Below are positions 32,919-55,205 of a DNA stretch of 64,000 bases, one piece after another. The notes beneath the pieces were generated by a model. The model was not told the DNA's origin and searched no databases. It saw only the letters and a program-made list of their open reading frames with translations. Every line of letters begins with the position of its first letter. The first letter of the stretch is position 1. The position numbers and the translations under genes are program-made. Source of the stretch: Mucilaginibacter sp. (lineage in GTDB: Bacteria > Bacteroidota > Bacteroidia > Sphingobacteriales > Sphingobacteriaceae); assembly GCF_025359345.1 (NCBI RefSeq), contig NZ_JANYGQ010000009.1, forward strand, positions 1 to 64,000, given 5' to 3'.

Positions 32919-33662
32919 ATGCCAGGGCTAAACAATTTGAAAAGAACCGTATTTATTTTTTCAATAATTTTATTATCAATACTGTTATTAAGATGCAAAA
33001 GCACACCCGCTACACAAGTATTTTATTTGAACGATAATTTTATAGGGATAAAACACGATGGGGTGGTGAAGTTTTACGAAACAAAGGACCAAAAGAAATG
33101 GATATACGGCCCAAACAAAGATTTTAAAAACCCCGGCGGCGCGGAGCAGGTATTTTATTTCTTTGGCAGCTACATTGGGGCAAGGGATGGTAAAAACATA
33201 AAATTTTATCATACCGACAGGTCCGGCGCGTGGAACTATAGTGCAGGTAAGTACCTTACGCTCGCCGACAAAACCGACGGCGTTTTTTCCATCAATTACA
33301 GCACAATTGGGGCTTGGCTCGGTAAAACCATAAAATTTTATGAAACCAATAAACAAGGTCAGTGGGCGGCCAGTCCGCTCAAAAACTTCGTGAACGATGA
33401 CGACATTGATGGCGCATTCACCCCCGGGAATAATTTTTTAGCTGTGCGGGCGGGCAAAACCGTTAGGTTTTATTACGTAGATCCGCAAGGCAACTGGGCC
33501 AATCGTGGTAATCTTACGTTTACAAGTACCGGTGCGGTGGACCAGGTGTTTTATTTAAACACCGGATCAATGGGGGTTTTGAGCGGTAATACCATCAAAT
33601 TTTACCAGGTAAACAAACAAGGTACCTGGGAATATAAGCCGGGATTTGATTTTACCTTTTAA
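32919..33662 (+). CDS. lipoprotein with five exact 44-residue repeats, predicted five-bladed beta-propeller
   Basis: 247 residues; hydrophobic leader and lipobox with Cys26 (ILLLRCKS). Five repeats follow. The conserved Trp falls at 61, 105, 149, 193 and 237, and the K/R-F-Y triplet at 51, 95, 139, 183 and 227, so the period is 44 with no insertion. Each unit reads roughly VFY-x-x-G-x-x-G-K-x-I-K-F-Y-x-x-x-x-Q-G-x-W. Tachylectin-2, a sugar-binding five-bladed propeller, has five repeats of 47 residues in a similar order, so a closed five-bladed lectin-like propeller is a fair model. The family itself I do not recognise. The gene is 6 bases upstream of the heptaheme cytochrome gene. Confidence 0.8.
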   Translation: MPGLNNLKRTVFIFSIILLSILLLRCKSTPATQVFYLNDNFIGIKHDGVVKFYETKDQKKWIYGPNKDFKNPGGAEQVFYFFGSYIGARDGKNIKFYHTDRSGAWNYSAGKYLTLADKTDGVFSINYSTIGAWLGKTIKFYETNKQGQWAASPLKNFVNDDDIDGAFTPGNNFLAVRAGKTVRFYYVDPQGNWANRGNLTFTSTGAVDQVFYLNTGSMGVLSGNTIKFYQVNKQGTWEYKPGFDFTF

Positions 33663-33668
33663 CTGTAT

Positions 33669-39900: not shown

Positions 39901-40199
39901 ACGCTACCGCTGCCTATGGCAACTTCTTTGGTTACATAGCCCACAAAGCTAATTACCAGTGTTGCATTGTCGGGAACGGCGAGTTTGAAGGTACCGTTAA
40001 CATCGGTCACGGTGCCGTTTGTTGTCCCTTTTATTTTTACGCCGGCGCCAGGTATTACGGTGCCATCGGGATCACTTACCGTGCCTGATACCTGCCGGGT
40101 TTGAGCTACCGCGGCAAAGCAGGTAAATAAAGTAAACAAAAAAACGAAAATCGTTTTTTTGCTACTATTGAATTTGTTAAACAGTAAATCTTTGTTCAT
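36981..40199 (-). CDS. SusC/RagA-family TonB-linked outer-membrane transporter
   Basis: 1072 residues with all expected parts: signal peptide (...CFAAVAQ), carboxypeptidase-D regulatory-like domain at about 34-115 (VSGTVSDPDGTVIPGAGVKI), the NEVVVVSVGYGTQKR TonB-box region, plug with GRAAGVQVTNNDASPGGN and ILKDASATSIYGIRAANGVV, and a barrel ending LNVTF. It imports oligosaccharides using TonB energy. The 5' gap of 585 bases carries a pair of the shared 15-base boxes at 40,430-40,465. Confidence 0.95.
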   Translation of the reverse strand: MNKDLLFNKFNSSKKTIFVFLFTLFTCFAAVAQTRQVSGTVSDPDGTVIPGAGVKIKGTTNGTVTDVNGTFKLAVPDNATLVISFVGYVTKEVAIGSGSVYNVKLASAVSNLNEVVVVSVGYGTQKRTDLTGAISSVSAATIAKVPVTSVEQALQGRAAGVQVTNNDASPGGNVSILIRGTGSLAQYGNSPLYVVDGYALETGGINNINPSDIASIDILKDASATSIYGIRAANGVVIINTKKGKKDGTTVEFNAYTAFQSRPKEYKLLNAQQFATLAVQQAADDPAKQFSVLSNWNDPTSLTSVDWQNAIYRTGLTQNYSLAIRGGNDKVQSSASIGYYDQKGIVLGSFFKRLTLGLNLDYQPTKWLKSSTSAKYSYQNANNPFGTGSLGNLAQLPPTLDGGNKQTSQISDSNGNYGFFNPIYTYVAKYNNPVYGISHNQYQNISQFFLTNSSLEATIIEGLKIKTNAGVTVTGINGSYFQPEDDRLVNQYGSQAGATQNAFYNQNLNTSFDWIWENTLSYNRTFGKHTIDFLGGVSEQELTNNGFSGSGVPPNSQIRDISQVSNLKLGTSAQNIQSLASQFVRLSYNYAGRYFITGTVRRDGSSKFDVGHKYGTFPSGAVSWKVKEEDFLKGVDWLTNFKLRGSYGEVGNEGPIGLFQYEAQYSTGSASTNSGNLGYPFNKIYQPGIAATSPENPNLRWETDYQTDIGADMAFLHGDLTLTVDWFNRKSKDFLLYIAVPPQTGYTNESQNVGTMSNKGWEFALNYSHATSSDLRLGAGLTVSFITNKLTALNSGTTFITNPLNSPNGAVNLNGQGWGVYSETHIGQPVGEFFGYKSIGVIQSQDQINALNANASAKTNGVNKFYYQALTGPGDRLFADINGDGVVNASDQVSLGNPQPKFFGGLNLDATYKAWDINLYFYGSYGNKILNYEESNLETFQNRGFVGVENLSQEYYKNAWTKSNPSNEFTRIYYNDNSYLNSVPSSQWIENGSYLKLKTLTIGYTLPSALVRKLSISKLRLYASTQNLFTITGYKGLDPEIGTQGGFGTQNGIDNGTYPSSKYFTVGLNVTF

Positions 40200-40784
40200 T
40201 TTGAGTCATTTAGGATGATTGATTATAAGTATTGGTTTGATTATTATAATGCCGGGCTTAATGCCCGAGTTGATTATTCATGTGTTGGTTTAAAGGTCTG
40301 CATGTAAAAAACCTTAGTTATGACGATTGTGGTTACTCGCACAAATTCCTGCCCGGTTTAATTAAATGCGGAGACCGCGATTTTATAATTGGTTACAGTT
40401 ATAAAATTATACAGGAAGTGATAAAAGGGATAACACTATTGATAATGATTATAGCACAAATGTTAATCATTTTTTAATCAACTAATAATCAATACATTAA
40501 CTAATATTTAGTTAAAAAATCATCAATAAATGCTACAATAATCGCAGCATATTTAACATTATTGGTACAGCCAGGGGTACTATTGTTGCCACCGTGTTCA
40601 ACTTTTAAAAATTATCAGTTAAAATAGTATCATACCAAAAAATCAGGTTTTCGCGCTTGCGGTGTGCGGCATTTTTTTCTCCGGGGGGCAAAAAAATCAA
40701 AACTGTTGAAGGCGAAAACCAAGCAATGCTTTATTGCCGAATAGCAGGTTAAGAAAAATGAATATAGTGTGTGTGCGGACGACG
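40200..40784. other. long leader/promoter region of SusC
   Basis: 585 bases without a gene. It contains the box pair described separately and a small hairpin GCCGGGC-TTAAT-GCCCG at about 40,251-40,267, inside the probable 5' untranslated region. A perfect palindrome AACTAATATTTAGTT lies at about 40,499-40,513. Confidence 0.5.
40430..40465 (-). promoter_or_regulatory. paired 15-base operator upstream of SusC
   Basis: ATAACACTATTGATA (40,430-40,444; 11 of 15 to consensus ATACCACAAATGTTA) and ATAGCACAAATGTTA (40,451-40,465; 14 of 15), starts 21 bases apart, same orientation. The proximal box lies about 230 bases before the SusC start codon. Confidence 0.6.
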
Positions 40785-41774
40785 TTAAAAGCTTTTTATC
40801 CCTTTTGGATTTATTTTCAGGATGTTACCTTCAGCGTCAAAGTTCAAACTATCAAGGCAAAGCTCGCGCAGCACAAATTCCTTTTTTTGGGGATGAATAC
40901 GGTGATACAAAATAAAATATTGCCCGCTTTGTTGAAAAACGGTATGGTGGCCGGGTCCTACGGTGGTGCTGTCGGCGCTGGTTGAAAGTATGGGGCCGTT
41001 TTTGCCTTCTGTCCATGGCCCAAACGGTGTTTTACCGGTCGAATACCAAATTTGATAACTCGCATCGATAGCTTTACCGTACGAATACATCAAATAATAC
41101 AAATTATTGCGCTTAACCATATGGGGTGCCTCAAAATAGTGCGGCGGGGTTACCTCAACAGGTGCACCATCAAAAGTAATCATATCCTTTTTTAGTTTTA
41201 CTGCCATGCAATGGCCGTTTATCCAGTTAAATCCCGAACCCCAGTACAGGTAAGCCTGGCCATCATCATCAATAAAACAATCGGCATCGATATTATGCAC
41301 TGCCGGGAATTGATTTGCAGCTATTAATGGCGTGTTATCATTTTTTACATTTTTCCAGGGGCCAAGCGGTTTGTCGCTTACACCAGCCCAAACTTCACTA
41401 CCCACAGCAACATACATGTAAAACTTACCGTTTGCCGCTTTCCTTACTGATGGCGCCCATACCATAGAACTGTTGGAAGTTGGACTTGTGCATGCTGCCT
41501 TGGTTGGCCAGTTAATATGTTTGATTTCAAAACTTATGAAATCCCTGGTTGTAAGTACGCCTAATTCACTGCCGCCCCATGGGTCGATGGTGGCGTAGAT
41601 GTAGTACACATCTTTGTCTTTTATAATGGTTGGATCGGCATAATAGCCGTTAACAATTGGATTGGTTGTTGATTTTTTTTGCGCCGACGAAAATTGCCAA
41701 AGAAATATAAGCAACATCGGCAGTAATACCAATTTTGATAGGCTGCCGATAGAATTCAGGGCGTATTTTTTCAT
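40785..41774 (-). CDS. GH43-family arabinosidase/xylosidase-like enzyme
   Basis: 329 residues with a signal peptide (...WQFSSAQ). The five-bladed propeller shows the three GH43 acidic residues: D47 in YYADPTI, D163 in HNIDADCFIDDDG, and E215 in HYFEAPHM. The family cleaves alpha-L-arabinofuranosyl or beta-xylosyl units. No appended carbohydrate-binding domain. It is the last gene of the GH31 transcript, 26 bases after the monooxygenase-fold gene. Confidence 0.9.
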   Translation of the reverse strand: MKKYALNSIGSLSKLVLLPMLLIFLWQFSSAQKKSTTNPIVNGYYADPTIIKDKDVYYIYATIDPWGGSELGVLTTRDFISFEIKHINWPTKAACTSPTSNSSMVWAPSVRKAANGKFYMYVAVGSEVWAGVSDKPLGPWKNVKNDNTPLIAANQFPAVHNIDADCFIDDDGQAYLYWGSGFNWINGHCMAVKLKKDMITFDGAPVEVTPPHYFEAPHMVKRNNLYYLMYSYGKAIDASYQIWYSTGKTPFGPWTEGKNGPILSTSADSTTVGPGHHTVFQQSGQYFILYHRIHPQKKEFVLRELCLDSLNFDAEGNILKINPKGIKSF

Positions 41775-41800
41775 AAATATAGTGATTCCGGTATGACCAG

Positions 41801-42232
41801 TTACATACCCGGCTTTTTTGCAGAGCCAACTAAGTTAACATCAACCAACTCCAGCGACGTCACCATATTTTTAACTGTCTCTTTGTATTTCTTAAAGTGA
41901 GCGGTTTCAATATGTGCCTTGTATGCCGCCGTATCGGCGTAAATTTCGAGGATCGTTATGTGTGATGGATTGTTTTTATCAGCTACAGCGTAATACGTTA
42001 ACACGCCAGGCTCTACGCCCACTGCGGTGGTCATTTGTTCTTTAAGGGCGGCATTATATTTTTCCAGTTGCAATGGGTCAACCTGGATTTTTGCCAGCCT
42101 TACCATTTGATTTCTTTGCTGCGCCATAGCTTTTTCACTAAAACTAAGCGTAAGTATACAAATAGTAACAATAAAAACAGCACGGCTACCCTGGGATAGC
42201 CGTGCTTTAATAATTTCCGTAAGTTTCTTCAT
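41801..42232 (-). CDS. exported monooxygenase-fold (ABM/YgiN-like) protein
   Basis: 143 residues from the ATG at 42,232 (MKKLTEII); the frame extends five codons further. A signal peptide ends in SEKAMAQ. MVRLAKIQVDPLQLEKYNAALKEQ, GVLTYYAVADKNNP and HFKKYKETVKNMV are typical of antibiotic-biosynthesis-monooxygenase domains, some of which oxidise quinols. An exported version inside a sugar locus is unusual but known in Bacteroidota PULs. The signal-peptide coding sequence contains a terminator-like hairpin (42,179-42,206). Confidence 0.75.
   Translation of the reverse strand: MKKLTEIIKARLSQGSRAVFIVTICILTLSFSEKAMAQQRNQMVRLAKIQVDPLQLEKYNAALKEQMTTAVGVEPGVLTYYAVADKNNPSHITILEIYADTAAYKAHIETAHFKKYKETVKNMVTSLELVDVNLVGSAKKPGM
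42172..42206 (-). terminator. terminator-like hairpin inside the start of the ABM gene
   Basis: On the minus strand AGCACGGCTA, TCCCAGGG, TAGCCGTGCT form a perfect 10-bp stem, followed at once by GTTTTTA. It starts about 26 bases after the ATG at 42,232 and is therefore within coding sequence, on the same strand as GH31, ABM and GH43. Confidence 0.6.
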
Positions 42233-42325
42233 AGCCCTTGGTGACAAAAAGTTATCTAAGCAAATGTTGTAAAAATTATGGTATTACCGGGAATAATAAT
42301 CTTTATAACACCCATAAATAAAGCT

Positions 42326-44737
42326 TTATAGCTTTACCACCATCTGTTGCCCTGTATAACTAACACTTTTATCTGCTTTGCTGCTAATGTCAACGTTTTC
42401 GCCATGTCCTTCTTTTACCAGCACTATATTGAAAATACGTTTTTTAGGCATACCGGGGTAAGTGCCTTTTCGATCGGTAATGGTTAGCTGGTGCAATTTA
42501 TCGTTCCATTTAAAGCTGAAAGTGGCGTGATTACCTTTCTCGTAATTGTAATTGTCGTTTTCGTCTTCGTAATATTTAAAGCTGCCATCGGTACCTGCGT
42601 AAATACGCAGTTCGATTGCGCCTCCGGGGTTTTGAGTGGCATATTCAATATTCGGCCCCATAGGTACCACCGAACCCGCCTTAACATAAAGCGGCATAGT
42701 CTCGATAGTTGCTGTTGCATCAATGGTTTGGCCACCCTCCAATGCTTCGCCTGTCCAGAAGTTATACCACTTGTTACCTTTTGGCAGGTAAACCTGGCGT
42801 GTTTTTGCTATCGCATCGGCATTGCTGGGGGTGTACATTGGTTTGGTTACTGGGTTTACTAAAAACGCAGGGCCAAACATGTATTGGTCAGGTATGTTGT
42901 ACACATTTTTATCATTCCTGAAGTCAAATGCCAGCGAACGCATAATGGTATAGTTATCATTGGTAACCTTTGCCGCCAGCGAGTAGGTATACGGTAGCAG
43001 GCGGTACCTTAACTTGTCATAGTTTAACAAAATTGTCCTGGTTTTTTCATCCCAGTTTTTTGAAAATAAGGCCCGCTCGCCTTTGCCGTGGATACGCATG
43101 ATCGGGCTGAATGTGCCAAACTGGAACCAGCGGGTAAACAATTCCCGGTATTTTGGTTGTGACCAATCAGGAATGCCGTCTTTATCTACACGTGAAAGAT
43201 AGCCACCGATGTCCGACGTCCAATATGGAATACCCGAAACACAAGCATTAATACCCTGCGGAATTTGGTTACGAAGGGATGCAAATGTACAGGTAATATC
43301 AGACGACCATAAAGTTGCTGCATTACGCTGCTCACCGGCAAATGACTGCCTGATCAACAAGAAAGCGCGTTTTCCCGGTATATCTGCGCGCCAGCCCTTG
43401 TAAAGCCCTTTTGAGTGTTCTAACGAATAAGTATTAAAGTAATCGATGCCTTTACCAACCGAAAAAACGGCTTTGCGGCGCTCGTCCAACAGGCTGCCGT
43501 TATCAGGCTCGCACTGGTCGACCCACCAGGCATCCCAGCCGTAGCGTTTTATTACGCTATCGCGGGCCTGCTCCCAGTAACGCTGGCGGGCTTTGGGGTT
43601 ATGGGCATCGTAGTAGGTATCATAAGTGTGTGTAACAAAATTATCCCAGGTAATGCTGGTTAAAAAACCTTTACTTTTTAAATCGTCAAAATCGCGCGTC
43701 CCGCTGCCAAATACCGGCCAAATAGATAACATGGCATGCATATTTGCCTTATGCAACTCGTCGATCATCGCTTTTGGATTGGGGTACCGGCCGTTATCCA
43801 TCACATGCGAGCCCATAGGCAACGGCGACCACCAGTACCAATCCTGCACAATGGCGTCAACAGGTATGTGGTTGTTGCGGTAATTATCTTTTACACCCAG
43901 GATTTCGTCCTGCCGGGTATATTTATCCTGCGACTGGAATAAACCCAATGACCACTTAGGGAACATCGGCGCACGCCCGGAAGCAGTGCGGTATAAATCG
44001 ATAATCCTGTCGAAATCAGGGCCGTAAAAAAAGTAATAATCAATCATTTTGCCGCTTTCGGACACGTACTTGTATTGGGTATTACCTGCTTCTGCGCCGT
44101 AAAAATTTGATGCGGCGTAATTGTCCCATAAAATACCATAGCCCTTGTTTGATAACATTACAGGTATAGCCCCCGTCATGTACTTTATCAGCATTTCCTG
44201 GTTGCGGCCTTTATAGTTGATGGATAAGGAATCTTCAGGATGACAGCCTAAACCAAACAACGCTTCATCGGCCGGCGAATTGAAATTTGTAGTACAGCTA
44301 TACGTTGATATACCTGCTACGGTTGACGGAGTCATGCTTTTATTTTCAGTGCCCTCGGCTACTATTATCTCACCTTTTTTGTTGGTGTAAGTTATTGCGT
44401 TGTTTGCTTTATTTATGCTGATGTTAAGCCTTGGGGTGGTGATAACTATTTGTCCGCTACGTTCTGTAACCGTAAATGAAGTCTTTCCGGCCCAGGGATT
44501 ATTTACTACCAGCGAGTTTTTGGCAGGGAAGGCGTCAAAAATGGTGTATTTAACTTCAACAATATCCGCTTTACAAATCTTTACGTTCATTAGGCCTTTA
44601 TCAAGCTTGAACGTAACACCATCGGCATTTTTTTTGTACGATATTACTGAGGCCTTCGTGGTGTTTACCAATAGCAAGGCAGTAAGTAAAAACGCAGCCG
44701 GTTTCAAAAGAAACTCTTTAGCAAAACTTTTTTTCAT
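42326..44737 (-). CDS. GH31 alpha-xylosidase/alpha-glucosidase-like enzyme
   Basis: 803 residues with a signal peptide (...VNTTKAS). The GH31 barrel shows nucleophile D407 in WWVD-QCEPD and acid/base D480 in LWSSD, plus DAIVQDWYWWSP before them. The QCEPD loop is of the type seen in alpha-xylosidase-like GH31 members, favouring removal of alpha-xylose from xyloglucan or similar chains; alpha-glucosidase remains possible. It is the first gene of a GH31-ABM-GH43 transcript. A pair of shared boxes lies 75 bases before its start. Confidence 0.88.
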   Translation of the reverse strand: MKKSFAKEFLLKPAAFLLTALLLVNTTKASVISYKKNADGVTFKLDKGLMNVKICKADIVEVKYTIFDAFPAKNSLVVNNPWAGKTSFTVTERSGQIVITTPRLNISINKANNAITYTNKKGEIIVAEGTENKSMTPSTVAGISTYSCTTNFNSPADEALFGLGCHPEDSLSINYKGRNQEMLIKYMTGAIPVMLSNKGYGILWDNYAASNFYGAEAGNTQYKYVSESGKMIDYYFFYGPDFDRIIDLYRTASGRAPMFPKWSLGLFQSQDKYTRQDEILGVKDNYRNNHIPVDAIVQDWYWWSPLPMGSHVMDNGRYPNPKAMIDELHKANMHAMLSIWPVFGSGTRDFDDLKSKGFLTSITWDNFVTHTYDTYYDAHNPKARQRYWEQARDSVIKRYGWDAWWVDQCEPDNGSLLDERRKAVFSVGKGIDYFNTYSLEHSKGLYKGWRADIPGKRAFLLIRQSFAGEQRNAATLWSSDITCTFASLRNQIPQGINACVSGIPYWTSDIGGYLSRVDKDGIPDWSQPKYRELFTRWFQFGTFSPIMRIHGKGERALFSKNWDEKTRTILLNYDKLRYRLLPYTYSLAAKVTNDNYTIMRSLAFDFRNDKNVYNIPDQYMFGPAFLVNPVTKPMYTPSNADAIAKTRQVYLPKGNKWYNFWTGEALEGGQTIDATATIETMPLYVKAGSVVPMGPNIEYATQNPGGAIELRIYAGTDGSFKYYEDENDNYNYEKGNHATFSFKWNDKLHQLTITDRKGTYPGMPKKRIFNIVLVKEGHGENVDISSKADKSVSYTGQQMVVKL

Positions 44738-44811
44738 TTAACAGGGTTATTTTAGGTTTTGACCGTGGTTGAAGATCAGGGTCTAAAACTACTTTCGTTT
44801 TTTAAAAACAA

Positions 44812-44847
44812 ATACCACAAATAGTAATAAGTGTAACACAAATGTTT
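44812..44847 (-). promoter_or_regulatory. paired 15-base operator upstream of GH31
   Basis: ATACCACAAATAGTA (44,812-44,826; 13 of 15) and GTAACACAAATGTTT (44,833-44,847; 12 of 15), starts 21 bases apart, same orientation as the other PUL sites. The proximal box is 75 bases before the GH31 start. Confidence 0.65.
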
Positions 44848-44912
44848 ACAATACCCATAATTTGGTGTAAGATGGTGTATTTTGTACGCTTTACAAAAAA
44901 GGTAGCTGGGCA

Positions 44913-45686
44913 TCACCTTATAAAGTGCAGCTTTTTACCAGCGTACTTTATCCATTCCCTTGCAAACAGTTCGTGGCCGTTTGGCATGGGGTGTATGCCG
45001 TCCCACATCCAATATTCGGCAGGCGGATATTTGGCTGCCGACTGGTTAAAACTATCCTGCAAGGGAACAAAAATGGCATTAAATTCTGCTGCAAGCTTTT
45101 TGGCAACTTGCTGCCGACCGGTAACTTCACGTTTATAGTCAACCCATTTATCTTTTACCCGGCCAACTGGCAATATAAACGGCTCGCAAATAACAAGTTC
45201 AACCTGTGGCAACTGTTGTTTGGTTTGGGTTAACAGCGCGCGGTAATCGTTTTCGTAGCTTTCAACCGTAAATCTTTTATCGCCTCCAACTGCGTGCATG
45301 GTATCGTTAACGCCTATTAAAATGCTTAGCACATCGGGTTTTATTGCGATGGTGTCGTCGGCCCAGCGAGCGGCCAGGTCCGGAACCGTATTGCCGCTTA
45401 TTCCCCGGTTAAAAAAGTGAAAGCCCTTTTTGGGCAGCTGATACCAAAGTCGGGCGGCAATTAAATAGGCATAACCGTGACCCAAAACATGATTCCAATC
45501 CGTATTGCGGCTGCGGTTACCGTCTGTAATGGAATCGCCCTGGAACAGGAACGTAAAACCATTTCCTTCATCGTCTGACGTTATCGAAAAGCCATCCAAC
45601 GCCGATGGAATGGCAAGTGCAGCAGCACCTGCCACCGATGCTTGTTTTATAAAATTCCGCCTTGATGATTCTTCTTTTTCGTGCAT
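44913..45686 (-). CDS. SGNH/GDSL-type esterase with Tat-like signal
   Basis: 257 residues. The N-terminus has SRRNFIKQASVAGAAALAIP, a twin-arginine-type signal. The four SGNH blocks are visible: GDS52ITDG, RGISGNT, IGVND and DGIHP near the C-terminus. In PULs such enzymes usually remove acetyl groups from hemicelluloses. The start codon overlaps the GH95 stop (TAATG), so translation is coupled. Confidence 0.88.
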   Translation of the reverse strand: MHEKEESSRRNFIKQASVAGAAALAIPSALDGFSITSDDEGNGFTFLFQGDSITDGNRSRNTDWNHVLGHGYAYLIAARLWYQLPKKGFHFFNRGISGNTVPDLAARWADDTIAIKPDVLSILIGVNDTMHAVGGDKRFTVESYENDYRALLTQTKQQLPQVELVICEPFILPVGRVKDKWVDYKREVTGRQQVAKKLAAEFNAIFVPLQDSFNQSAAKYPPAEYWMWDGIHPMPNGHELFAREWIKYAGKKLHFIR

Positions 45687-48148
45687 TAAATTGTGCTGCT
45701 AATTTTATACCGCCCGCCCGCTTGTGTATTAAATGCGGTTACATACCCATTAGCCGTTTTTTTGGATACTGCCGATACCCCGGCAACTTTTATCGGCTGG
45801 CTGGTGCGGATACTACATTTGCCGCCAACTACCGCCAACACCGATGCACTTGTAAGTTTCATATCTTTCCAGCGCATACTTATCTCGAAATTGCCACGTG
45901 CTTTTAAACCAGAAATTTCGCCTGTTGCCCATGCATCGGGAAGAGCGGGGAGCATATTTATTTCGTTGTTCTGGCTCTGCAGCAACATTTCGGCCATGCC
46001 TGAAACGCCGCCAAAGTTGCCATCAATCTGGAACGGCGGGTGGGCATCAAACAAATTGATGTAAGAACCGCCACCGCCAGAGTATTTTGTACCGGAAACA
46101 GCTGTAGCCCTTAACAAATCTTTTATCATTTTGTAGCTGTGGTTGCCATCGAGCAGCCGGGCCCAAAAGTTTATTTTCCATGCAAGGCTCCAGCCGGTGC
46201 CTTCATCACCACGCAGTTCGAGTGTTTTTTTGGCAGCAGCCGTCAGCTCCGGCGTATTTATGGGAGATATCTGGTTACCGGGGAACAAGCCGAACAAGTG
46301 AGAAACGTGGCGGTGGTGCGGCTCAGGATCCTCCCAATCTTTATACCATTCCTGCAAGTTTCCTTTTTTGCCGATGTGGAACGGGTATAGTTTAGCTTGT
46401 TTAGCTATTATCGTGTCGCGGAAAGCCTTATCATCGCCTAACTCATTTGCAGCTGCTATAACGTTGCCGAACAAATCGCGGATGATGGACATATCCATAG
46501 TTGTGGCGATGGATACGCTGCCTTTTTTACCTTTATCATCAAAAAAAGCGTTCTCGGGCGACACAGAAGGCGCCGTAACCAAATAACCATCCTTATCAGG
46601 TACCAGCCAGTCTTCACAAAATTGGGCCGCGCCTTTCATTAACGGATAAGCTACTTCGCGAAGGTATTTTTTATCTTTTGTATATTGGTAATGCCACCAC
46701 AAATGCTGCGACATCCAGGGCGATCCCATTGTCCAGTTGGCCCAGGTGGGGTCGCCTTTGCCTTTGTCGCCCACGGGGTTGGTTAGCGCCCAGATATCAC
46801 TGTTATGGTGCAGCACCCAGCCCTTGGCATGGTAAAATTCTTTTGCAGTACGCCTGCCGGTGACAGCCACATTTTTTATAAAACTGATAAGCGGTTCGTG
46901 CATTTCCGAAAGATTGGCAACCTCTGCGGGCCAGTAATTCATCTGCGTGTTAATATTGGTGGTATAGTTCGAGCTCCATGGCGGTCGCAGCTCCTTATTC
47001 CATATTCCCTGCAAGTTGGCCGGCACGCCTTTGGTTCGCGAGCTGGATATCAACAGGTACCTGCCATATTGAAAGTAGAGTGTCTCCAGGTCAGGGTCTT
47101 TTGCGCCGGAAGTGTAGGCAACCAGGCGCTCGTCGGTTGGGAGGCTTGCGTTGCTGTTATCGGCAGGGGCAGCCAGTTTAAACGATACCCGATTGAAGAA
47201 GTGGTGATAATCGGCATAATGTGCCGCCAATAATGTTGACCAGCCTTGTGCCGATGCTTTTTTCAGATAATCGCCGGCTATTTTGCCTTCGTCCTTACCT
47301 TCGGATACCGGGCATCTATCAAAGCCGTTGAAACTTGTGGCCGCCGAAAGAAAAATAGTGGCCTCTGTTGCGTTTTTAACAGTAACGCCAGTTGTATCGG
47401 CGCTTATTTTACCATCCTTGCTTACAGCCTTTATTTGCAGCTGAAAACGCATACCCTTGCACCCGGTAACATCATAAGTAATTGGGTTTGCCGAGTCGAC
47501 GTAATTAGGGTCGTCGTGCGCGGGGGCTTTACCTTTTATGGCAAGCTGGTTGCCGGGTAAAATAGCCATGTTATGCATTAATAAGCTGCCTGCACCTACC
47601 TTAAAACTCAATTGCCCGGTTTTGCTTGCGGTAAGGTGGATAACAATAACCTGGCTGGGCGCTGATATTATTACCTGCCGGGTATAAGTTACGCCATTAA
47701 TGGTATAACGGGTTGTTGATATGGCGTTTTTAATATTCAGGTCGCGGTAGTAAGCGGAGGGTACGGTATCTTTTAAATCCTGGGTAATGGTCAAATCACC
47801 CAGCGGCAAATACGACTCGGAAAAATACCCCTGCATATTTTTAGCATAGTTGTAGGCTTTGGCGTAATCTTCCTCTTTAAAAAGCGCTTCTCTCGCCAGT
47901 AATAAATTGGCATAGGCATCAGGATTCACGTTGGTACGAACCGGGCCGCCAGACCATAACGTAGCTTCATTTAGCTGTATAAGCTCCTGATTAACCCGGC
48001 CGAAAACCATAGCACCCAAGCGACCGTTGCCTAATGGCAAGGCATCGGTCCACACCTTTGCGGGTTGTTTGTACCAAAGCTTCAGATTATCCTGGCAAAT
48101 GCCGGTGAAGGGGATTAAACAGGTAAAGAGGATGAGGATTTTTTTCAT
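45686..48148 (-). CDS. GH95-family alpha-L-fucosidase/alpha-L-galactosidase-like enzyme
   Basis: 820 residues from ATG 48,148, which begins a good signal peptide (MKKILILFTC...GICQ). The longer frame to 48,190 only translates an intergenic repeat. WTDALPLGNGRLGAMVFG, LNEATLWSGGP, LQGIWNKELRPPWSSNYT, SPENAF and GNLQEWYKDWEDPEPHHRHVSHL are GH95 landmarks, including the acid Glu in LQEW. GH95 enzymes remove alpha-1,2-linked L-fucose from xyloglucan or L-galactose from complex xylans. It lies between GH27 and the esterase on the same strand. Confidence 0.92.
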   Translation of the reverse strand: MKKILILFTCLIPFTGICQDNLKLWYKQPAKVWTDALPLGNGRLGAMVFGRVNQELIQLNEATLWSGGPVRTNVNPDAYANLLLAREALFKEEDYAKAYNYAKNMQGYFSESYLPLGDLTITQDLKDTVPSAYYRDLNIKNAISTTRYTINGVTYTRQVIISAPSQVIVIHLTASKTGQLSFKVGAGSLLMHNMAILPGNQLAIKGKAPAHDDPNYVDSANPITYDVTGCKGMRFQLQIKAVSKDGKISADTTGVTVKNATEATIFLSAATSFNGFDRCPVSEGKDEGKIAGDYLKKASAQGWSTLLAAHYADYHHFFNRVSFKLAAPADNSNASLPTDERLVAYTSGAKDPDLETLYFQYGRYLLISSSRTKGVPANLQGIWNKELRPPWSSNYTTNINTQMNYWPAEVANLSEMHEPLISFIKNVAVTGRRTAKEFYHAKGWVLHHNSDIWALTNPVGDKGKGDPTWANWTMGSPWMSQHLWWHYQYTKDKKYLREVAYPLMKGAAQFCEDWLVPDKDGYLVTAPSVSPENAFFDDKGKKGSVSIATTMDMSIIRDLFGNVIAAANELGDDKAFRDTIIAKQAKLYPFHIGKKGNLQEWYKDWEDPEPHHRHVSHLFGLFPGNQISPINTPELTAAAKKTLELRGDEGTGWSLAWKINFWARLLDGNHSYKMIKDLLRATAVSGTKYSGGGGSYINLFDAHPPFQIDGNFGGVSGMAEMLLQSQNNEINMLPALPDAWATGEISGLKARGNFEISMRWKDMKLTSASVLAVVGGKCSIRTSQPIKVAGVSAVSKKTANGYVTAFNTQAGGRYKISSTI

Positions 48149-48161
48149 AGCTTTTATTTTA

Positions 48162-48246
48162 AGAACCAGGAGCCAAGAATCAAGAGCCAAGACAGAAGCC
48201 CGACATTTCTTGAATGTTTTTCTCCTGATTCTTGGCTCTTGGTTCT
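48162..48246. repeat. inverted repeat built from AAGAgCC-type 7-mers
   Basis: The left arm 48,162-48,193 reads AGAACCAGGAGCCAAGAATC and onward; the right arm 48,221-48,246 is its reverse complement with two mismatches in 25. Each arm is a tandem of 7-base words (AAGAGCC, AAGAATC, AAGAACC). It fills the GH27-GH95 gap, 3 bases from the GH27 stop. Confidence 0.85.
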
Positions 48247-48249
48247 AAA

Positions 48250-49611
48250 TCACTGCGCTACCAACTTCAGCAGCACCGCCCCATGCTTATTAACCTGCTG
48301 ATGATAGCTTTGCTTAAATATGCCCATGTCCTGTTTCTTCCATAAATCCCTTACGGAAATTTTGCCTATCATACCTATTGATGCGAAGGTAAAATCAATA
48401 TCCTGGGGTTGCTCGCCCAGGTTAAACAGCGCTATGTACATGTCTTTGCTGCCCTGCGCGTGCGAGTACCATATTGTTTTTCCGTCTTTTTCAAACAGTT
48501 GCCTCGGGTTTTCGCCCTGCTGGTTAACAGCAATAACTTCGGGATTATTAAACAGGCTCAACTCAAAGGGCCGGTTTTCAGGCAGGTTTCCGCCAAGCAT
48601 TAAAGGTGAGCGAAATATGCTCCAAAAAGTCATATGCGTATATTCCTCGTCTTCGGTAAAGCGGCTGTAACGCTCCTCGCCCACCGGGCCGCGTTTAGAT
48701 AGCTTGCCGATTTGTATCATATCGCAATCGGGCCAGTGGCCCTGCACACCTACGCCTTCCCATTGTTTGGCGTATTTCATCATGCCGGTTATTTCTTTCC
48801 AGTTATCCCAAAAATCATCGGCCATGCGCCACATGTTGGCATTTCTAAGCAAGTGATCGGTTTCACCAACGGGTGTTGCACCCGGTGAAAGACTTAATAC
48901 AATTGGCCGGGCGCAATGCTCAATAGCCTTATAGTAGCCTTCCACTTCGGGCTCGCTATAGGGCCGCGAAAGATCATCTACCTTAATAAAATCAACACCC
49001 CATTCGGCGTATAGCTCCAGTATCGAGTTTAAATACTCCTGGGCGCCGGGCTTTTTCATATTCAGCCCGTACATGTGGTTCATCCAGGGGCATTTTGAAT
49101 TGGTGTCGGCAATCATATCTGCAGTGATGCCGTTTGTTCCCTTCACCGGCAATTTTGCCCAAACCGCCTGCCGCGGTATGCCACGCATAACGTGGATACC
49201 AAACTTCAACCCCAGCCCGTGCACATACTCTGCCAGCGGACCAAAACCCTTGCCGCCAAATGCCGAGGGAAATTTGGTGGGCTGCGGGCTTAGCCGGCCC
49301 CATTTGTCCATAGTGAGCCACGGAACATAGGAGCCATCGGGCAAGCGCAACTGAAAGGGATTGCCGATGTTGCTGCCCGGCGGGTTATCATACGACCATA
49401 AAAAATCGACTATAATATATTGCCAGCCGACTTGTTTCAAATTTTTTGCCATATAATCGGCATTGGCTTTTACTTCATCCTCGTGCACGGCCGAACCAAA
49501 ACAATTGTAGCTGTTCCAGCCCATGGGCGGGGTTAAGGCAACGTTTTGTGCCGATGAGGAAATGGAAATTGATACTAAGGCGCCAACGAGCACGGCGTAC
49601 AGGTATTTCAT
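48250..49611 (-). CDS. GH27 alpha-galactosidase-like enzyme
   Basis: 453 residues with a signal peptide (SISSSAQ). LTPPMGWNSYNCFG is the family opening. The nucleophile is D212 in FIKVDD and the acid/base is in RMAD265D. A short C-terminal beta domain follows. GH27 members release alpha-galactose or, in some cases, beta-L-arabinopyranose. It starts 25 bases after the hybrid two-component gene and probably shares its transcript. Confidence 0.92.
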   Translation of the reverse strand: MKYLYAVLVGALVSISISSSAQNVALTPPMGWNSYNCFGSAVHEDEVKANADYMAKNLKQVGWQYIIVDFLWSYDNPPGSNIGNPFQLRLPDGSYVPWLTMDKWGRLSPQPTKFPSAFGGKGFGPLAEYVHGLGLKFGIHVMRGIPRQAVWAKLPVKGTNGITADMIADTNSKCPWMNHMYGLNMKKPGAQEYLNSILELYAEWGVDFIKVDDLSRPYSEPEVEGYYKAIEHCARPIVLSLSPGATPVGETDHLLRNANMWRMADDFWDNWKEITGMMKYAKQWEGVGVQGHWPDCDMIQIGKLSKRGPVGEERYSRFTEDEEYTHMTFWSIFRSPLMLGGNLPENRPFELSLFNNPEVIAVNQQGENPRQLFEKDGKTIWYSHAQGSKDMYIALFNLGEQPQDIDFTFASIGMIGKISVRDLWKKQDMGIFKQSYHQQVNKHGAVLLKLVAQ

Positions 49612-49636
49612 AACAGTTGTAAGTTCTCTGCGTTAA

Positions 49637-52600
49637 TTAATTAAGGGTTTCTTCTTTTTCTTTACTGCGCAATTCAACAATGTATTCGGATGGCAACATA
49701 CCAAATTCCTCGCGAAAAACCTTGGCAAAGTAAGCAGCGTTATTAAATCCGACTTCGTAGGCAACACTGGCAATGCTCAGCTTGCTTTTCTCAAGCAGCT
49801 GCACTGCCCGCTTCAGGCGGATGGTGCGGATACAATCAACAGGGGTTTTACCGGTAAGTACTAATAATTTTTTGTAAAGCGATACCCTGCTGAGGTTCAT
49901 ATTCCGGCTCATCTCTTCGACCGAGAAATTCGGATTGGTTATATTCTTTTCAATACAGGCAAAGGCGTTCTTTAAAAACTTTTCATCTTCCGACACCACC
50001 TCGATACCCGATGCCTGCACATCAACCTGTTTCTGATAGGTTTTGGTAATCTTTAACAACCCATGGATTTTCGACAGCAATATTTCAAAGTTGAACGGCT
50101 TAACAATATAATCATTAGCGCCGCTGTTAAGGCCGGTTAACTGGTCATCCTGGCTGGTTAGTGCGGTGAGCAAAATAATTGGAATTTGTGCTGTGCGGCT
50201 GTCGGCTTTTATTTTTTTGCAAAGCTCGATGCCATTCATTTCGGGCATACTTACATCGCTCACAATAAGCTTAGGGTGCAATGCAAGCGCTTTTTGCCAC
50301 CCATCCTTGCCGTTTACTGCTTCAATAATATGGAAGCTATGTTTAAGGTTATCCTTTAAGTAAAATCTTAAATCATCATTATCCTCTATCAATAAAATAG
50401 CCGGCTTTTTTGAGGAGTTATTTACATTTTCTGCTGCCGGCAATGCAGGGTACAGCGCTTCAATCGCATCAGGAACATCTATCAACGACTCTTCGTGTAA
50501 GTCGCCAACAGGCAGCTCAATGGTGAAGCAGGTGCCATAATCGGGCTCGCTTTCAATTTTGATATCGCCGCCATGCATCTTAACAAATTCCTTGGTTATT
50601 GATAAACCGATACCGCTGCCCTGGTTAAGCAAACTCTCCGGCATGTTATCCTGGAAAAAGCGCTCAAAGATCTTTTCCTGGTTTTCGGCCGGTATGCCGA
50701 TACCTGTATCCATGATTTTTATCTCCAGTATCTTTTGGTCTTGCGCAAAAATATCGGGCGAGAATAAGTTGATCATTACGCTTATATAACCGCCCGATGG
50801 AGTAAACTTAAATGCATTTGATAACAGGTTAAACAGCACCCGTTCAATCTTGTCATGGTCGAAATTGGTGACGAACGAAGAAACCTCGCTTTCAAACAAA
50901 AACTGTATCTGTTTTTGATGCGCTACATCGGTAAACGACGATGAAACCTCTTTTATAAAATGGATGATATCGCCTTTTTTCAGGCTGAGCTTAAGCTCAT
51001 TGTACTCCATTTTACGAAAATCGAGCAACTGGTTTACCAGATTGAGCAGCCGTTTGCCATTGCGTTTTATCATGGTAAGTTGCTGCTGCTGTTCAGGCCG
51101 CTCAGTAGTTTTTATTAAGTCATCAATAGGCGATAGTATGAGCGACAATGGTGTGCGGAACTCGTGGCTCACGTTAGTGAAAAATTTAATCTTCATTACA
51201 TCAAGCTGATGCATGCGCCGGGCCTCTTCGCGTTCGTTGGCAATTTGCCGTTCTTCCTCCAGCTTATCGTGCTTAAGCCTGAATTCGTTCCTAAGTTTCA
51301 TTATTCCCCGGTGGCGGATGTAAAATAACGCACAACCAATAAGCACCACGTAAAAAACGTATGCAATTGCCGACTTCCAGAACGGCGGTAATACCTTTAT
51401 GTTAAGCGTTATGATGCTTGCGTTATTAATATCGTTAATGCTGCTTGCACGCACCTTAAAAACATAGTCGCCGGCATCAAGGTTGGTAAAAGTGGCCTTG
51501 CGAGAATTATTGGGTACCGACAGCCATTGTTTATCAAAATCTTCCAACTTATACTGATAAACAATTTTATCGGGGTTAAAATATTCAGTGGCTGCAAACT
51601 CAATACTAAAATCGTTTTCGTTGTGGTTCAGCGTTAAGTTCTTCGTGTCGGTAATGGAGCTTTTAAGCACCACGTTGCCATTAATGGTATCGCCCACAAT
51701 TACGCTTTTATTAAACAGCTGAAAGTCAGTAAACAACAGCTGGGGCTTGTTTTTGGTTATGCTGATAGACGAAGGATTGAAAATATTATACCCGTGCGCA
51801 CCGCCAAATATCATATCGCCATTGGGCCTTTTAATAGCGGCATAGGCATTAAACTCACGCCCCTGCAACCCGTCTGACTCATCAAATTTATTTATGTGGA
51901 AGGTGTATCCTCCACCAGCCGGCAGCGCTGTAATGGCGGCCATGCCATTAGGTGTGCTGAGCCAAATTTTTCCGTTGTTATCTTCCAGTATCTTCAATAC
52001 ATCATTGGCAGGCAAACCATTTGCTTCATTGAGGTTGTAAAATTTATTTGTTTTGGGGTTTAATACGCTTAAGCCATCTTTGGCGCCTATCCACATCAGG
52101 CCGCGGGTGTCCTGCAAAATGGTATTTACATCATTGCCAATAAGGCTATTAGGGTTATTGGGCTGGTTTTTGTAATGCCGGGCTACTGTGCTGCCCGGGG
52201 ATATAAAGTCGATACCCTTATCGCGGCCTATCCAGATGTTTTTTTGCCGGTCTTCATATATAATTGCCGTGTAGTTTGACAGCATCTGGTAATTGGGGTG
52301 CTGAAAACTATTGGTAGCCCTGTCGTAAATATTGATTGCACCCGCAAACGTGCCTAACCACAGCTTTTGCGACGAGTCTTCTATAATGGTATACACCCTG
52401 TCGTCTGATATGCTGGAAGGATCGGTGTCGTTATGTTTATAATGAACGAATCTGCCGCCTTCAAAACGATCCAGCCCGCCAAAATACGTGCCAACCCAAA
52501 GCTTATGATCATGGTCTATACAAAGGCTTATTACCACATTGTTAGCAAGGCTGCTGGCGTCGGCGGGGTTATGTTTGTATTGGGTGTACGTTTTTTTGCC

Positions 52601-53797
52601 GGCATCGTAATAGATCAGTCCGCCGCCGTTGGTACCCATCCATAAGTTGCCTTTTCCATCATCAGCAAAGCAGTCCACATCTTCGTAAGGCAGACTCCTG
52701 GCATCCGAAAGGTAATGCCTTACCAGCGGAAACTGGATGATACTTTTGTGGTAATAGCTTATCCCCTGCTTAAAGGTACCTGCCCAAATTATGCCGGTGT
52801 TGTCTTTGTAAAGCACCGTACTGTTACCCTGCAGCGATTTAGCATCATCCTCCTTATTTAATACATATTGTATACTGTTATTGGCCGGATTGATGATGTT
52901 TATGCCCCCGTGGTCTGTACCGATCCATATTTTATTGTCGTCGGCCTGTAAAATGCTATAAATAACATTGTAATTGAGCCTGGTGCTGCCGGTTTCGGTG
53001 CTGAAATGGTCGAGTACATCGGTGTTAGTGTTGTACCGGTAAACACCGAGCGGACTATCAGCGGCAAACAGCCAAAGGTTGTTTTGGCTATCAATGCTTG
53101 CCGAATACCTTTCGGGCTTGTTATTGTTGGCTTTGGATAATTTACTGGTTTGCGCAACTATGGTGCTGGTACGAACATCGAGTTTGTCAATTTCACCATC
53201 GGAATAAACAAGCCATACAAACTTGCGACCGTCTTCAACAACGTCGGTCACCGCATCGGAGTGTAAAATGGAAATTGAATTATTACCGGCACTATTAAAA
53301 AAACTGGTGGTATTGGTTTTAGGGTCGTAGCAATATAAGCCCTCGTTATTGGTTAAAAACCAAAAATTGCCCTGGTTGTCTTTTTTAATATTGGTCAACT
53401 GGTCGGTTAATACTTTATATTTACCGAGTTCGCGGGCAATATCGTTCGAAAATTTCTCGGTGATTGCGTCGTATATGCTGAACCCGCTGTGGGTTTTTAT
53501 CCAGAGCTTTTTGCCGGGCCCCTCAAAAATGCCTGCAACGGCATTATCTCCCAATGATGTTGGATCATTTGCGCGGTGTTTAAATACTTTAAATTTATAG
53601 CCGTCGTACCGGTTTAACCCACTTATGGTGCCGAACCACATAAAGCCGTCGGCATCTTTAAAAATGCTGCTTACCTGGTTTATCGACAGGCCGTTGGTGA
53701 TATCCAGATGCGAAAACTGATAAGTCGTGTTTTGTGCATACAGCCATTGCTGCATCACCATAAACAGGATAACAATTTTGTAAACTCTAAAGCGCAT
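49637..53797 (-). CDS. hybrid two-component system regulator (HTCS) of the PUL
   Basis: 1386 residues in the classic order: signal peptide; two-component propeller repeats to about 740 (WFGTISGLNRYDGYKFK, WIGTDHGGINI); Y_Y_Y domain; one membrane helix at about 808-830; HisKA with FFTNVSHEFRTPLSLIL at about 870-886; HATPase with NAFKFTPSGGYI and DTGIGIP; receiver domain from about 1138 (LLIEDNDDLR) with phospho-acceptor Asp in VSDVSMPEMNG; and a C-terminal AraC-type DNA-binding domain. It senses a glycan fragment in the periplasm and activates the locus. A pair of shared boxes lies 358 bases before its start. Confidence 0.95.
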   Translation of the reverse strand: MRFRVYKIVILFMVMQQWLYAQNTTYQFSHLDITNGLSINQVSSIFKDADGFMWFGTISGLNRYDGYKFKVFKHRANDPTSLGDNAVAGIFEGPGKKLWIKTHSGFSIYDAITEKFSNDIARELGKYKVLTDQLTNIKKDNQGNFWFLTNNEGLYCYDPKTNTTSFFNSAGNNSISILHSDAVTDVVEDGRKFVWLVYSDGEIDKLDVRTSTIVAQTSKLSKANNNKPERYSASIDSQNNLWLFAADSPLGVYRYNTNTDVLDHFSTETGSTRLNYNVIYSILQADDNKIWIGTDHGGINIINPANNSIQYVLNKEDDAKSLQGNSTVLYKDNTGIIWAGTFKQGISYYHKSIIQFPLVRHYLSDARSLPYEDVDCFADDGKGNLWMGTNGGGLIYYDAGKKTYTQYKHNPADASSLANNVVISLCIDHDHKLWVGTYFGGLDRFEGGRFVHYKHNDTDPSSISDDRVYTIIEDSSQKLWLGTFAGAINIYDRATNSFQHPNYQMLSNYTAIIYEDRQKNIWIGRDKGIDFISPGSTVARHYKNQPNNPNSLIGNDVNTILQDTRGLMWIGAKDGLSVLNPKTNKFYNLNEANGLPANDVLKILEDNNGKIWLSTPNGMAAITALPAGGGYTFHINKFDESDGLQGREFNAYAAIKRPNGDMIFGGAHGYNIFNPSSISITKNKPQLLFTDFQLFNKSVIVGDTINGNVVLKSSITDTKNLTLNHNENDFSIEFAATEYFNPDKIVYQYKLEDFDKQWLSVPNNSRKATFTNLDAGDYVFKVRASSINDINNASIITLNIKVLPPFWKSAIAYVFYVVLIGCALFYIRHRGIMKLRNEFRLKHDKLEEERQIANEREEARRMHQLDVMKIKFFTNVSHEFRTPLSLILSPIDDLIKTTERPEQQQQLTMIKRNGKRLLNLVNQLLDFRKMEYNELKLSLKKGDIIHFIKEVSSSFTDVAHQKQIQFLFESEVSSFVTNFDHDKIERVLFNLLSNAFKFTPSGGYISVMINLFSPDIFAQDQKILEIKIMDTGIGIPAENQEKIFERFFQDNMPESLLNQGSGIGLSITKEFVKMHGGDIKIESEPDYGTCFTIELPVGDLHEESLIDVPDAIEALYPALPAAENVNNSSKKPAILLIEDNDDLRFYLKDNLKHSFHIIEAVNGKDGWQKALALHPKLIVSDVSMPEMNGIELCKKIKADSRTAQIPIILLTALTSQDDQLTGLNSGANDYIVKPFNFEILLSKIHGLLKITKTYQKQVDVQASGIEVVSEDEKFLKNAFACIEKNITNPNFSVEEMSRNMNLSRVSLYKKLLVLTGKTPVDCIRTIRLKRAVQLLEKSKLSIASVAYEVGFNNAAYFAKVFREEFGMLPSEYIVELRSKEKEETLN

Positions 53798-53818
53798 ATG
53801 TGCCTGGTATGTCGGTTT

Positions 53819-53938
53819 GAATCAAGAGCCAAGAATCAAGAACCAAGAGTCAAGACAGAAAAAAGGAAAATTGGCAAATGGCGATTCACACCACCTACTG
53901 TTTTCACTCTTTGTTCTTGATTCCTGGCTCTTTGTTCT
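53819..53938. repeat. second copy of the AAGAgCC 7-mer inverted repeat
   Basis: The left arm 53,819-53,855 is five to six 7-base words (AAGAGCC AAGAATC AAGAACC ...); the right arm 53,911-53,938 is the inverted counterpart (TTCTTGATTCCTGGCTCTTT). Same word family as 48,162-48,246, different spacer. It lies just upstream of the HTCS gene. Confidence 0.8.
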
Positions 53939-54154
53939 ATTCCCTTTGTTCTTACTAATTGGTTCTAATTCTCTAATCTATGCAATAATTGTTAATATAA
54001 CAGTAATTAATTTCAACTGCACGCAGCACAGCTATTTATCACATCAAAAAAACGTTAAATACAATTCAACCGCATTTGCCGGGCGTAACAGGTCTATTTA
54101 TTGGATTGCTGCTAAAGCACTGGTGGTAAAGTTAGGGTTTTATGCAGCTCATGG

Positions 54155-54190
54155 ATACGACAAATGTTAAATTTGATACCACAAATGTTA
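54155..54190 (-). promoter_or_regulatory. paired 15-base operator between AraC and HTCS genes
   Basis: ATACGACAAATGTTA (54,155-54,169; 14 of 15) and ATACCACAAATGTTA (54,176-54,190, the consensus itself), starts 21 bases apart. A third, partial half (AAATGTTAA) occurs at about 54,202. The pair is the best match of the four. Confidence 0.7.
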
Positions 54191-54219
54191 GGGAAGGATA
54201 AAAATGTTAACCGCTTGTT

Positions 54220-55107
54220 TTATATAAAAACTTTCCCTGATGTATAGGTTTCCCTGAATTCGCGGGGCACACATTGTTTTTTGCGTTTAAAGGCGCGATT
54301 GAAATTAGAGATATTGTTGAAGCCGCACTTATAGGCGATGAGGGCTATGGTATAATTGGTATCAACCAGCATGCGCGATGCATGGCCCAGCCTTATTTCG
54401 TTAATAGTATCGATAAACGACTTGCCGGTACGCTTTTTGAAAAACCTGCTGAACGATACAGTAGGCATATTTGCTATTTTTGCCGCCTCGGCAAGGGCAA
54501 TTGGTTTTTCGTAATTATCATATAAAAACTCAAATACCTTTTCCACCCTGCGGCTCTTATAGGCAAATTTCTCGCTGGCAAAGCCCGGCTCCGACAACAA
54601 CTTTATATTTGGCGCCACCGATAAACTGTGCAGAATTGACAACAAGGCCAGTACGGCCTCGAACTGGGTTTTCTGTTTTAAATTCACGATGCTGTCCAGC
54701 ACGCCCTCCGCTGTTTCCTGCGAAAAAAGTATACCGCGCTGGGCATTGTTAAACATGCTTTTGAGCATGCTTAGCTGGTTGCGTTTTAAAAAGCCCTCTC
54801 CAAATAAATCCTTATGAAACTGGATGGTTATTTCCTGTATATCGCCGGGTTTGCGCTGATGGTTGAACCAGGAATGGTACAGGTTAGGGCCGATAAACAC
54901 CAGCTCGATATCGTCAACCACGCCAATGCTGCCGCCCACAATACGTTTGGCGCCTTTGGCATTTAATATCAGGGTGAGTTCATATTCGCTGTGATAGTGC
55001 AGCGGGAAGTCAAAATCCTTTTTTACCCTTGACGATATAGTGAAACAATCGCCCGGAGTTAAAGGTGTTATTTCGTGCATTACGCCCGGAGTGACTGCCT
55101 GGTACAT
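54220..55107 (-). CDS. AraC-family regulator with N-terminal cupin sensor
   Basis: 295 residues. Residues 1-110 form a cupin (DFPLHYHSEYELTLILNAKG with the two histidines). The C-terminal 100 residues carry the double HTH: IALAEAAKIANMPTVSFSRFFKKRTGKSF, then IALIAYKCGFNNISNFNRAFKRKKQCVPREF. Soluble, so it senses an internal sugar or metabolite. It lies upstream of the HTCS on the same strand and has its own box pair 63 bases before its start, so it is a candidate autoregulated owner of the boxes. Confidence 0.9.
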   Translation of the reverse strand: MYQAVTPGVMHEITPLTPGDCFTISSRVKKDFDFPLHYHSEYELTLILNAKGAKRIVGGSIGVVDDIELVFIGPNLYHSWFNHQRKPGDIQEITIQFHKDLFGEGFLKRNQLSMLKSMFNNAQRGILFSQETAEGVLDSIVNLKQKTQFEAVLALLSILHSLSVAPNIKLLSEPGFASEKFAYKSRRVEKVFEFLYDNYEKPIALAEAAKIANMPTVSFSRFFKKRTGKSFIDTINEIRLGHASRMLVDTNYTIALIAYKCGFNNISNFNRAFKRKKQCVPREFRETYTSGKVFI

Positions 55108-55169
55108 TGTTTTTAAAATTGGAGGTTGTTATTTGGTTTTGTAAAGCTATAGCATTACAATTTTTATTA

Positions 55170-55205
55170 ATCCCACAAAAGTTTATGTTTATATAACAAA
55201 TGTTA
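55170..55205 (-). promoter_or_regulatory. paired 15-base operator upstream of AraC gene
   Basis: ATCCCACAAAAGTTT (55,170-55,184; 12 of 15) and ATATAACAAATGTTA (55,191-55,205; 13 of 15), starts 21 bases apart, same orientation. The proximal box is 63 bases before the start codon. Confidence 0.6.

Follow-up and report, generated by a model that had tools for sequence, protein, structure and literature searches.

A direct-repeat module fixed to the -7 element marks the predicted operators of a hybrid two-component regulator in Mucilaginibacter

Four promoters of a SusC/SusD locus in Mucilaginibacter sp. (RefSeq assembly GCF_025359345.1, contig NZ_JANYGQ010000009.1, positions 1 to 64,000; this whole stretch of 64,000 nucleotides is called the window) share a compact module in which two direct 15-bp boxes, 21 bp apart from start to start, are followed 20 bp past the proximal (second) box by a -7 element. 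The four pairs are very probably operators bound by the hybrid two-component system protein (HTCS) encoded in the same locus, a prediction that draws on sequence comparison across the genus. The original prediction, made from the window alone, had proposed an AraC-type operator owned either by this HTCS or by an AraC-family protein of the locus; comparative evidence supports the operator and resolves the choice toward the HTCS. The -7 element at a fixed 20 bp is a feature that the earlier proposal did not contain. The elements concerned are the following.

40430 to 40465, minus strand: operator pair of the SusC promoter, in gene orientation TAACATTTGTGCTAT-N6-TATCAATAGTGTTAT
40401 to 40409, minus strand: -7 element TAATTTTAT of the SusC promoter, 20 bp from the proximal box
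44812 to 44847, minus strand: operator pair of the GH31 (glycoside hydrolase family 31) promoter, the weakest of the four (model score 18.4)
44783 to 44791, minus strand: -7 element TAGTTTTAG of the GH31 promoter, 20 bp from the proximal box
54155 to 54190, minus strand: operator pair of the HTCS promoter (model score 44.3)
54126 to 54134, minus strand: -7 element TAACTTTAC of the HTCS promoter, 20 bp from the proximal box
55170 to 55205, minus strand: operator pair of the AraC promoter (model score 42.8), with operators likewise upstream of HTCS-linked AraC genes in relatives
55141 to 55149, minus strand: -7 element TAGCTTTAC of the AraC promoter, 20 bp from the proximal box
49637 to 53797, minus strand: HTCS with a Reg_prop and Y_Y_Y sensor, HisKA-HATPase, receiver and AraC-type helix-turn-helix (HTH) by Pfam; predicted owner of the operators
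54220 to 55107, minus strand: AraC-family regulator of 295 amino acids with HTH_18 at its C terminus; predicted HTCS target

All eight boxes first reported are present, matching the consensus at 11, 14, 13, 12, 14, 15, 12 and 13 of 15 positions, and a single box in gene orientation reads approximately TAACATTTGTNNTAT. Each pair lies upstream of a minus-strand gene, as had been noted: SusC (ATG at 40199), GH31 (44737), HTCS (53797) and AraC (55107). The single orientation and the 21-bp spacing hold for the four window pairs; the claim of exactly 21 stands for these sites and fails across the relatives, where the AraC or GH31 promoter of several shows a spacing of 22. If up to 6 mismatches in 30 are allowed, the window contains four pairs at spacing 21, one at 19 and none at any other spacing from 11 to 35, and the spacing-19 pair fits an additional box of weaker match at 54195 (10 of 15), 19 bp from the HTCS pair. 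The HTCS pair itself is situated between the AraC stop codon and the HTCS gene, 358 bp upstream of the ATG of the latter. A 40-nt inverted repeat of CAAGAATCAAGA type, 85% complementary, is also found between the HTCS operator and the HTCS start codon (window 53819-53858 / 53898-53937).

TANNTTT begins exactly 20 bp past the proximal box (+20) in all four promoters, as TAATTTTA, TAGTTTTA, TAACTTTA and TAGCTTTA. Class-II activators have their proximal site near the -33 region, and since the proximal box here ends 20 bp before the -7 element, near -33, the layout fits class-II activation. The araI1/araI2 sites of Escherichia coli AraC are direct half-sites 21 bp apart, the proximal one beside the core promoter, from which AraC activates in class-II fashion. 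The window pairs share this arrangement of two direct half-sites at 21 bp with the proximal one beside the core promoter, but here a membrane sensor kinase carries the DNA-binding domain (DBD), and a Bacteroidetes-type -7 element characterizes the promoter. Among 74 listed pairs from HTCS loci (the four of the window and some overlapping secondary pairs included), 59 have TANNTTT exactly at +20, which places the proximal half-site at a fixed distance beside the core promoter. The -7 elements resemble the TAnnTTTG described for the Bacteroidetes primary sigma factor, with A in place of G as the last base (PMC7366714).

Within the own genome of 6.9 Mb, the two 9-bp cores, set 21 bp apart and allowed up to three mismatches, occur 23 times, against 38 times for a reversed control; the pair alone, this loosely defined, is therefore not selective genome-wide and was dropped as a genome-wide test. 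TANNTTT stands at +20 in all four reported sites and in none of the remaining 19 loose matches. The full pattern of pair and -7 element (at most 3 mismatches in 23) has exactly four matches, which are the four reported sites, with none at spacing 20, none at spacing 22 and none in reversed controls; it was written after the sites had been seen, so the controls carry the weight of this test. A model was trained on 39 sites from relatives, and its training left out the six nearest loci (L084-L089; handles beginning with L denote loci, with G genomes and with C contigs) as well as the own one. It gives its top scores in the window to the four sites (44.3, 42.8, 38.0 and 18.4), where the highest score in 100 surrogate windows is 14.2. 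Because the relatives were found using the window consensus, this test is independent in sequence and not in motif choice. The model holds 19.5 and 16.5 bits for the two boxes, 9.4 for the nine -7 columns and a total of 4.0 for the 20 gap columns; as the gap is hardly conserved beside the boxes and the -7 element, the conservation is not mere relatedness.

The comparison set consists of 149 genomes of the genus, which are related, so that counts among them are not independent events and Fisher values for the association of HTCS and pair are too optimistic. Full-length HTCS orthologues of at least 60% identity occur in 43 of these genomes, the own included, the next identity among the matches listed being 56%; two genomes with partial HTCS matches only (G375 and G350) are counted among the 106 without an orthologue. 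The pair is conserved together with the orthologue: at two mismatches or fewer it is present in 31 of the 43 HTCS genomes and in none of the 106 others, and at three or fewer in 39 of 43 versus 11 of 106, where a reversed control gives 8 in all 149. Six of these eleven genomes were checked further, and five have no TANNTTT at +20 (G189, G082, G353, G367 and G371 lay outside this check). The sixth, G291, carries its 3-mismatch pair and TANNTTT at +20 upstream of a GH127 gene (L181, G291:C6:102945) and has no HTCS orthologue of at least 60% identity.

Exact AACATTTGT pairs at gaps of 4 to 34 number 27 in the 149 genomes, and 21 of them have the 21-bp period out of 31 possible gaps (reversed control, 14 over all gaps), contrary to the equal frequency at other spacings that the original prediction had named as its refutation. 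The neighbourhoods of the 42 other orthologues, each of at most 20 kb, were scanned together with the own locus. When up to 3 mismatches in the 20 core positions are allowed, 30 of 37 SusC promoters have the pair at spacing 21 (surrogate mean 0.05), other spacings from 12 to 33 reaching at most 4 of 37 each, and the second half of the SusC-promoter pair is near-identical in L085, L087, L088 and L089. Full modules occur in 39 of the 43 HTCS loci, own included. At a stricter cut, 45 modules have spacing 21, seven have 22 and none has 17-20 or 23-25; the 22-bp form is found in the AraC promoters of L085, L086, L089 and L107 and in the GH31 promoters of L094, L095 and L097. The view that the locus forms one regulon gains support from this comparison.

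Ownership of the boxes by the AraC-family protein, which would then regulate its own gene and have the HTCS among its targets, is highly improbable, even though this protein has an AraC-type DBD and its gene is preceded by the operator both in the window and among relatives. At 1e-60, 91 of the 149 genomes encode a relative of the AraC protein. Five HTCS genomes lacking such a relative nevertheless hold the pair, with three mismatches in G364, two in G341, one in G216 and none in G261 and G267, whereas the 53 genomes that have an AraC relative but no HTCS orthologue all lack it at two mismatches or fewer, three of them having it at three. A pair that accompanies AraC irrespective of the HTCS was thus not found (0 of 53 at two or fewer; 5 of 5 HTCS-only genomes at three or fewer). 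Two of the five, G261 and G267, do have weaker AraC-family matches (2.0e-50 and 5.3e-41). None of 43 scanned genes for the widespread AraC paralogues has a pair with at most 4 of 20 mismatches within 400 bp upstream. Since the pair follows the HTCS orthologue, persists without an AraC relative and is absent at two mismatches or fewer where AraC occurs alone, the HTCS is the most likely owner, and AraC as owner was rejected on these presence and absence data. Binding of the same boxes by both proteins, as partners or competitors, is unlikely, if somewhat less so than ownership by AraC alone: the two proteins share the AraC type of DBD and are encoded side by side in several genomes, but their DBDs are only 30% identical, and full modules occur both with an AraC gene in the fetched stretch (12 of 12 loci) and without one (27 of 31). 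A look for an operator of the AraC protein itself yielded only a different, conserved box, GTTAAATTNGTATCA, chosen by eye as a recurring element ahead of the genes for the widespread AraC paralogues (for example at L027, L031 and L204); one copy with one mismatch lies near the SusC operator (window 40618, plus strand), and this box could be an AraC operator.

It is scarcely credible that the boxes amount to nothing more than recurring promoter sequence (-33) or AT-rich repeats that arose by chance. The TTTG inside the box resembles the -33 consensus (PMC7366714), and the pair taken without its -7 box at three core mismatches is, as noted, no commoner than its reversed control. Against this, the full module is confined to four sites in 6.9 Mb and tracks one regulator, and the columns from box to -7 element are hardly conserved. 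The TTTG of the proximal box also ends 26 bp before the -7 element, more than the usual gap between -33 and -7, which is shorter. A role of the boxes as -33 elements was rejected on this distance and on the link to one regulator.

With the HTCS as the predicted owner, the AraC gene is best read as one of its targets. A pair lies upstream of the HTCS-linked AraC genes of the own genome and of G307, G252, G356, G321, G334, G036, G312, G089, G300 and G308, and AraC genes about 25 kb from the HTCS gene keep it about 135 bp upstream (L171 in G285, L185 in G337, and G380:C136:189712). At L087 (G364) no AraC gene is seen, and a pair closely like the relatives' AraC operator is found about 320 bp upstream, directly before the HTCS gene, an arrangement that reads as a natural AraC deletion. 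The presence and absence data above, the pair upstream of most HTCS-linked AraC genes and this arrangement together lead to the reading as a target. Operators before both the HTCS and the AraC gene imply autoregulation and a cascade.

Several observations weigh against HTCS ownership, its generality or the AraC gene as a target, besides the non-independence of the genomes. The GH31 site of the window is weak, at a model score of 18.4. Of the 21 exact pairs, one comes from G291, which has no HTCS orthologue reaching 60% identity, and one lies outside the HTCS locus (G302:C9). Six of 37 SusC promoters have no good pair within 600 bp (L091, L094, L095, L097, L098 and L103), with L098 and L103 having theirs about 0.8 kb upstream. 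Four of 43 HTCS loci are without a full module in the fetched stretch: L090 is at a contig end, L100 has the pair with a deviant -7 element, for L108 a SusC operator lies at a distance of 110 kb, and L119 shows no such circumstance, the genome (G346) lacking any pair at three mismatches or fewer. G315, G116 and G321 likewise have none, which with G346 makes four HTCS genomes lacking a match. Four HTCS-linked AraC genes (G014, G375, G315 and G338) have no pair directly upstream; in G315 the AraC gene follows GH31, whose upstream region has a weak pair. In G338 the AraC-like stretch beside the HTCS gene (G338:C8:228022-228906) contains one in-frame stop codon, and no pair was found upstream of it. 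The operator before the HTCS gene itself is absent in most distant orthologues, and predicted HTCS autoregulation is limited to some orthologues. Finally, the pair at one paralogue locus, L222, differs rather little from the own type.

The HTCS of the locus is a single polypeptide with a propeller sensor, HisKA and HATPase domains, a receiver and an AraC HTH. Its DBD and receiver are the best conserved domains among orthologues (mean identity to the own protein 85% and 84%), and in 20 paralogues these values fall to 57% and 72%. None of 19 paralogue loci contains the own-type module at the cut applied. A search for repeats at spacings of 15-28 ending 19-21 bp before TANNTTT gave no clear signal alone in 18 paralogue SusC promoters, and a related but diverged operator, approximately TAACATTTGGTCTAT-N6-TATCAANNCTGCCAT, was traced by eye from AACATTTG-type anchors in nine of these 18.

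The receiver of the clade departs from the common pattern. Instead of the S/CHIP motif, the own HTCS has AQIP at residues 1203-1206; SHIP is found in 4 of 43 orthologues versus 19 of 20 paralogues, and 22 of the 43 orthologues have lost the H as well as the S/C. The motif is common and not defining, S/C being reported in 84% and H in 91%, and in Bacteroides thetaiotaomicron it is tied to inhibition of binding, substitutions in it allowing the HTCS to bind DNA without phosphorylation (PMC11253607). In that study of REC-DBD (receiver and DBD) control (PMC11253607), the protein architecture is the same and susCD-homologue promoters served as targets, as predicted here, but the S/C of the motif is missing from 39 of the 43 Mucilaginibacter orthologues. 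A tentative and rather doubtful extension is that the HTCS of this clade works without the usual receiver-DBD lock and is pre-bound on its operators, with AraC as a second, HTCS-driven relay. A pre-bound HTCS would then switch the promoter on signal, and the strict 21/20 module would be the readout of such an arrangement.

The remaining genes of the locus are the following.

35187 to 36956, minus strand: SusD-like glycan-binding lipoprotein
36981 to 40199, minus strand: SusC-like TonB-dependent transporter
40785 to 41774, minus strand: GH43
41801 to 42247, minus strand: ABM-domain protein
42326 to 44737, minus strand: GH31, whose closest solved relatives are alpha-xylosidases including BoGH31A
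44913 to 45686, minus strand: GDSL esterase
45686 to 48190, minus strand: GH95
48250 to 49611, minus strand: alpha-galactosidase-like protein (Pfam Melibiase_2, GH27-like)

Xyloglucan loci, such as that of Bacteroides ovatus with BoGH31A, contain GH31, GH95, SusC/SusD and an HTCS. The locus described here resembles the B. ovatus example in its alpha-xylosidase-related GH31, GH95, SusC/SusD and HTCS, and differs from xyloglucan loci in that no backbone-cleaving endo-xyloglucanase was found among the 20 window proteins scanned. Judged by its enzymes, the likeliest substrate is xyloglucan-like. In relatives, pairs also stand before a GH9 gene (G159, with a similar-looking gene in G323), a GH3 gene (G294) and an epimerase-like gene (G302). 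Their TANNTTT begins at +23, +21 and +21, respectively, and these offsets make the three targets less certain. Further SusC genes have the pair with TANNTTT at +20 in G237, 110 kb from the HTCS gene, and in G308, on another contig. Adjoining the SusD gene of the window, positions 28834-34889 encode an FG-GAP/UnbV_ASPIC protein and a multihaem cytochrome-like protein.

Comparison of sequences establishes the module, its conservation and its link to the HTCS, and a mechanism can be proposed on this basis. An HTCS dimer would bind with one AraC-type DBD on each 15-bp box, the two boxes being two helical turns apart on one face of the DNA. The bound HTCS would most likely activate RNA polymerase in class-II fashion, with the proximal box at about the -33 position of a sigma-ABfr type promoter. 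Sensing of an oligosaccharide, probably derived from xyloglucan, would trigger the HTCS, which would in turn activate SusC/SusD and the GH31 operon as well as the genes for itself and for AraC; the extents of these operons and the action of the AraC protein further downstream are likewise presumed.

In B. thetaiotaomicron, predicted HTCS operators consist of direct repeats spaced 21 bp on average (Ravcheev et al., 2013; PMC3878776), and each of the four window pairs is made up of two direct repeats at this distance. As described there, such operators lie upstream of SusC/SusD and enzyme operons in the locus of their HTCS, which holds for the pairs reported here, and one-face dimer binding was proposed (PMC3878776). 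The likeness is one of geometry as that paper describes it; the Mucilaginibacter pairs differ in having a box sequence of their own, a -7 element at a fixed 20 bp and AraC as a recurrent target. Since direct repeats of about 21 bp were already known for predicted HTCS operators (Ravcheev et al., 2013), the form of the operator is not itself new. Newer are the fixed 20-bp link, the predicted control of AraC by the HTCS and the loss of the receiver motif, together with the exact module and its likely owner. Among the top-ranked papers on HTCS operators, start-site position and Mucilaginibacter HTCSs, with RegPrecise and supplements outside the coverage, no description of the fixed distance or the motif was found, and passages of PMC12125979, PMC10766802 and PMC11501099 contain nothing bearing on either.

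The resulting sequence rule, a 15-bp box with a 21-bp period and 20 bp to TANNTTT, assigns a predicted regulon to one HTCS in an HTCS-rich genome. In relatives it suggests candidate targets beyond the locus, and it opens the DNA specificities of HTCS paralogues to comparison. A further gain is the predicted connection of a sensor-kinase regulator with another regulator, of AraC type. Should the altered receiver have the significance that it has in B. thetaiotaomicron, this clade would provide a natural test of how DNA binding by HTCS proteins is restrained.

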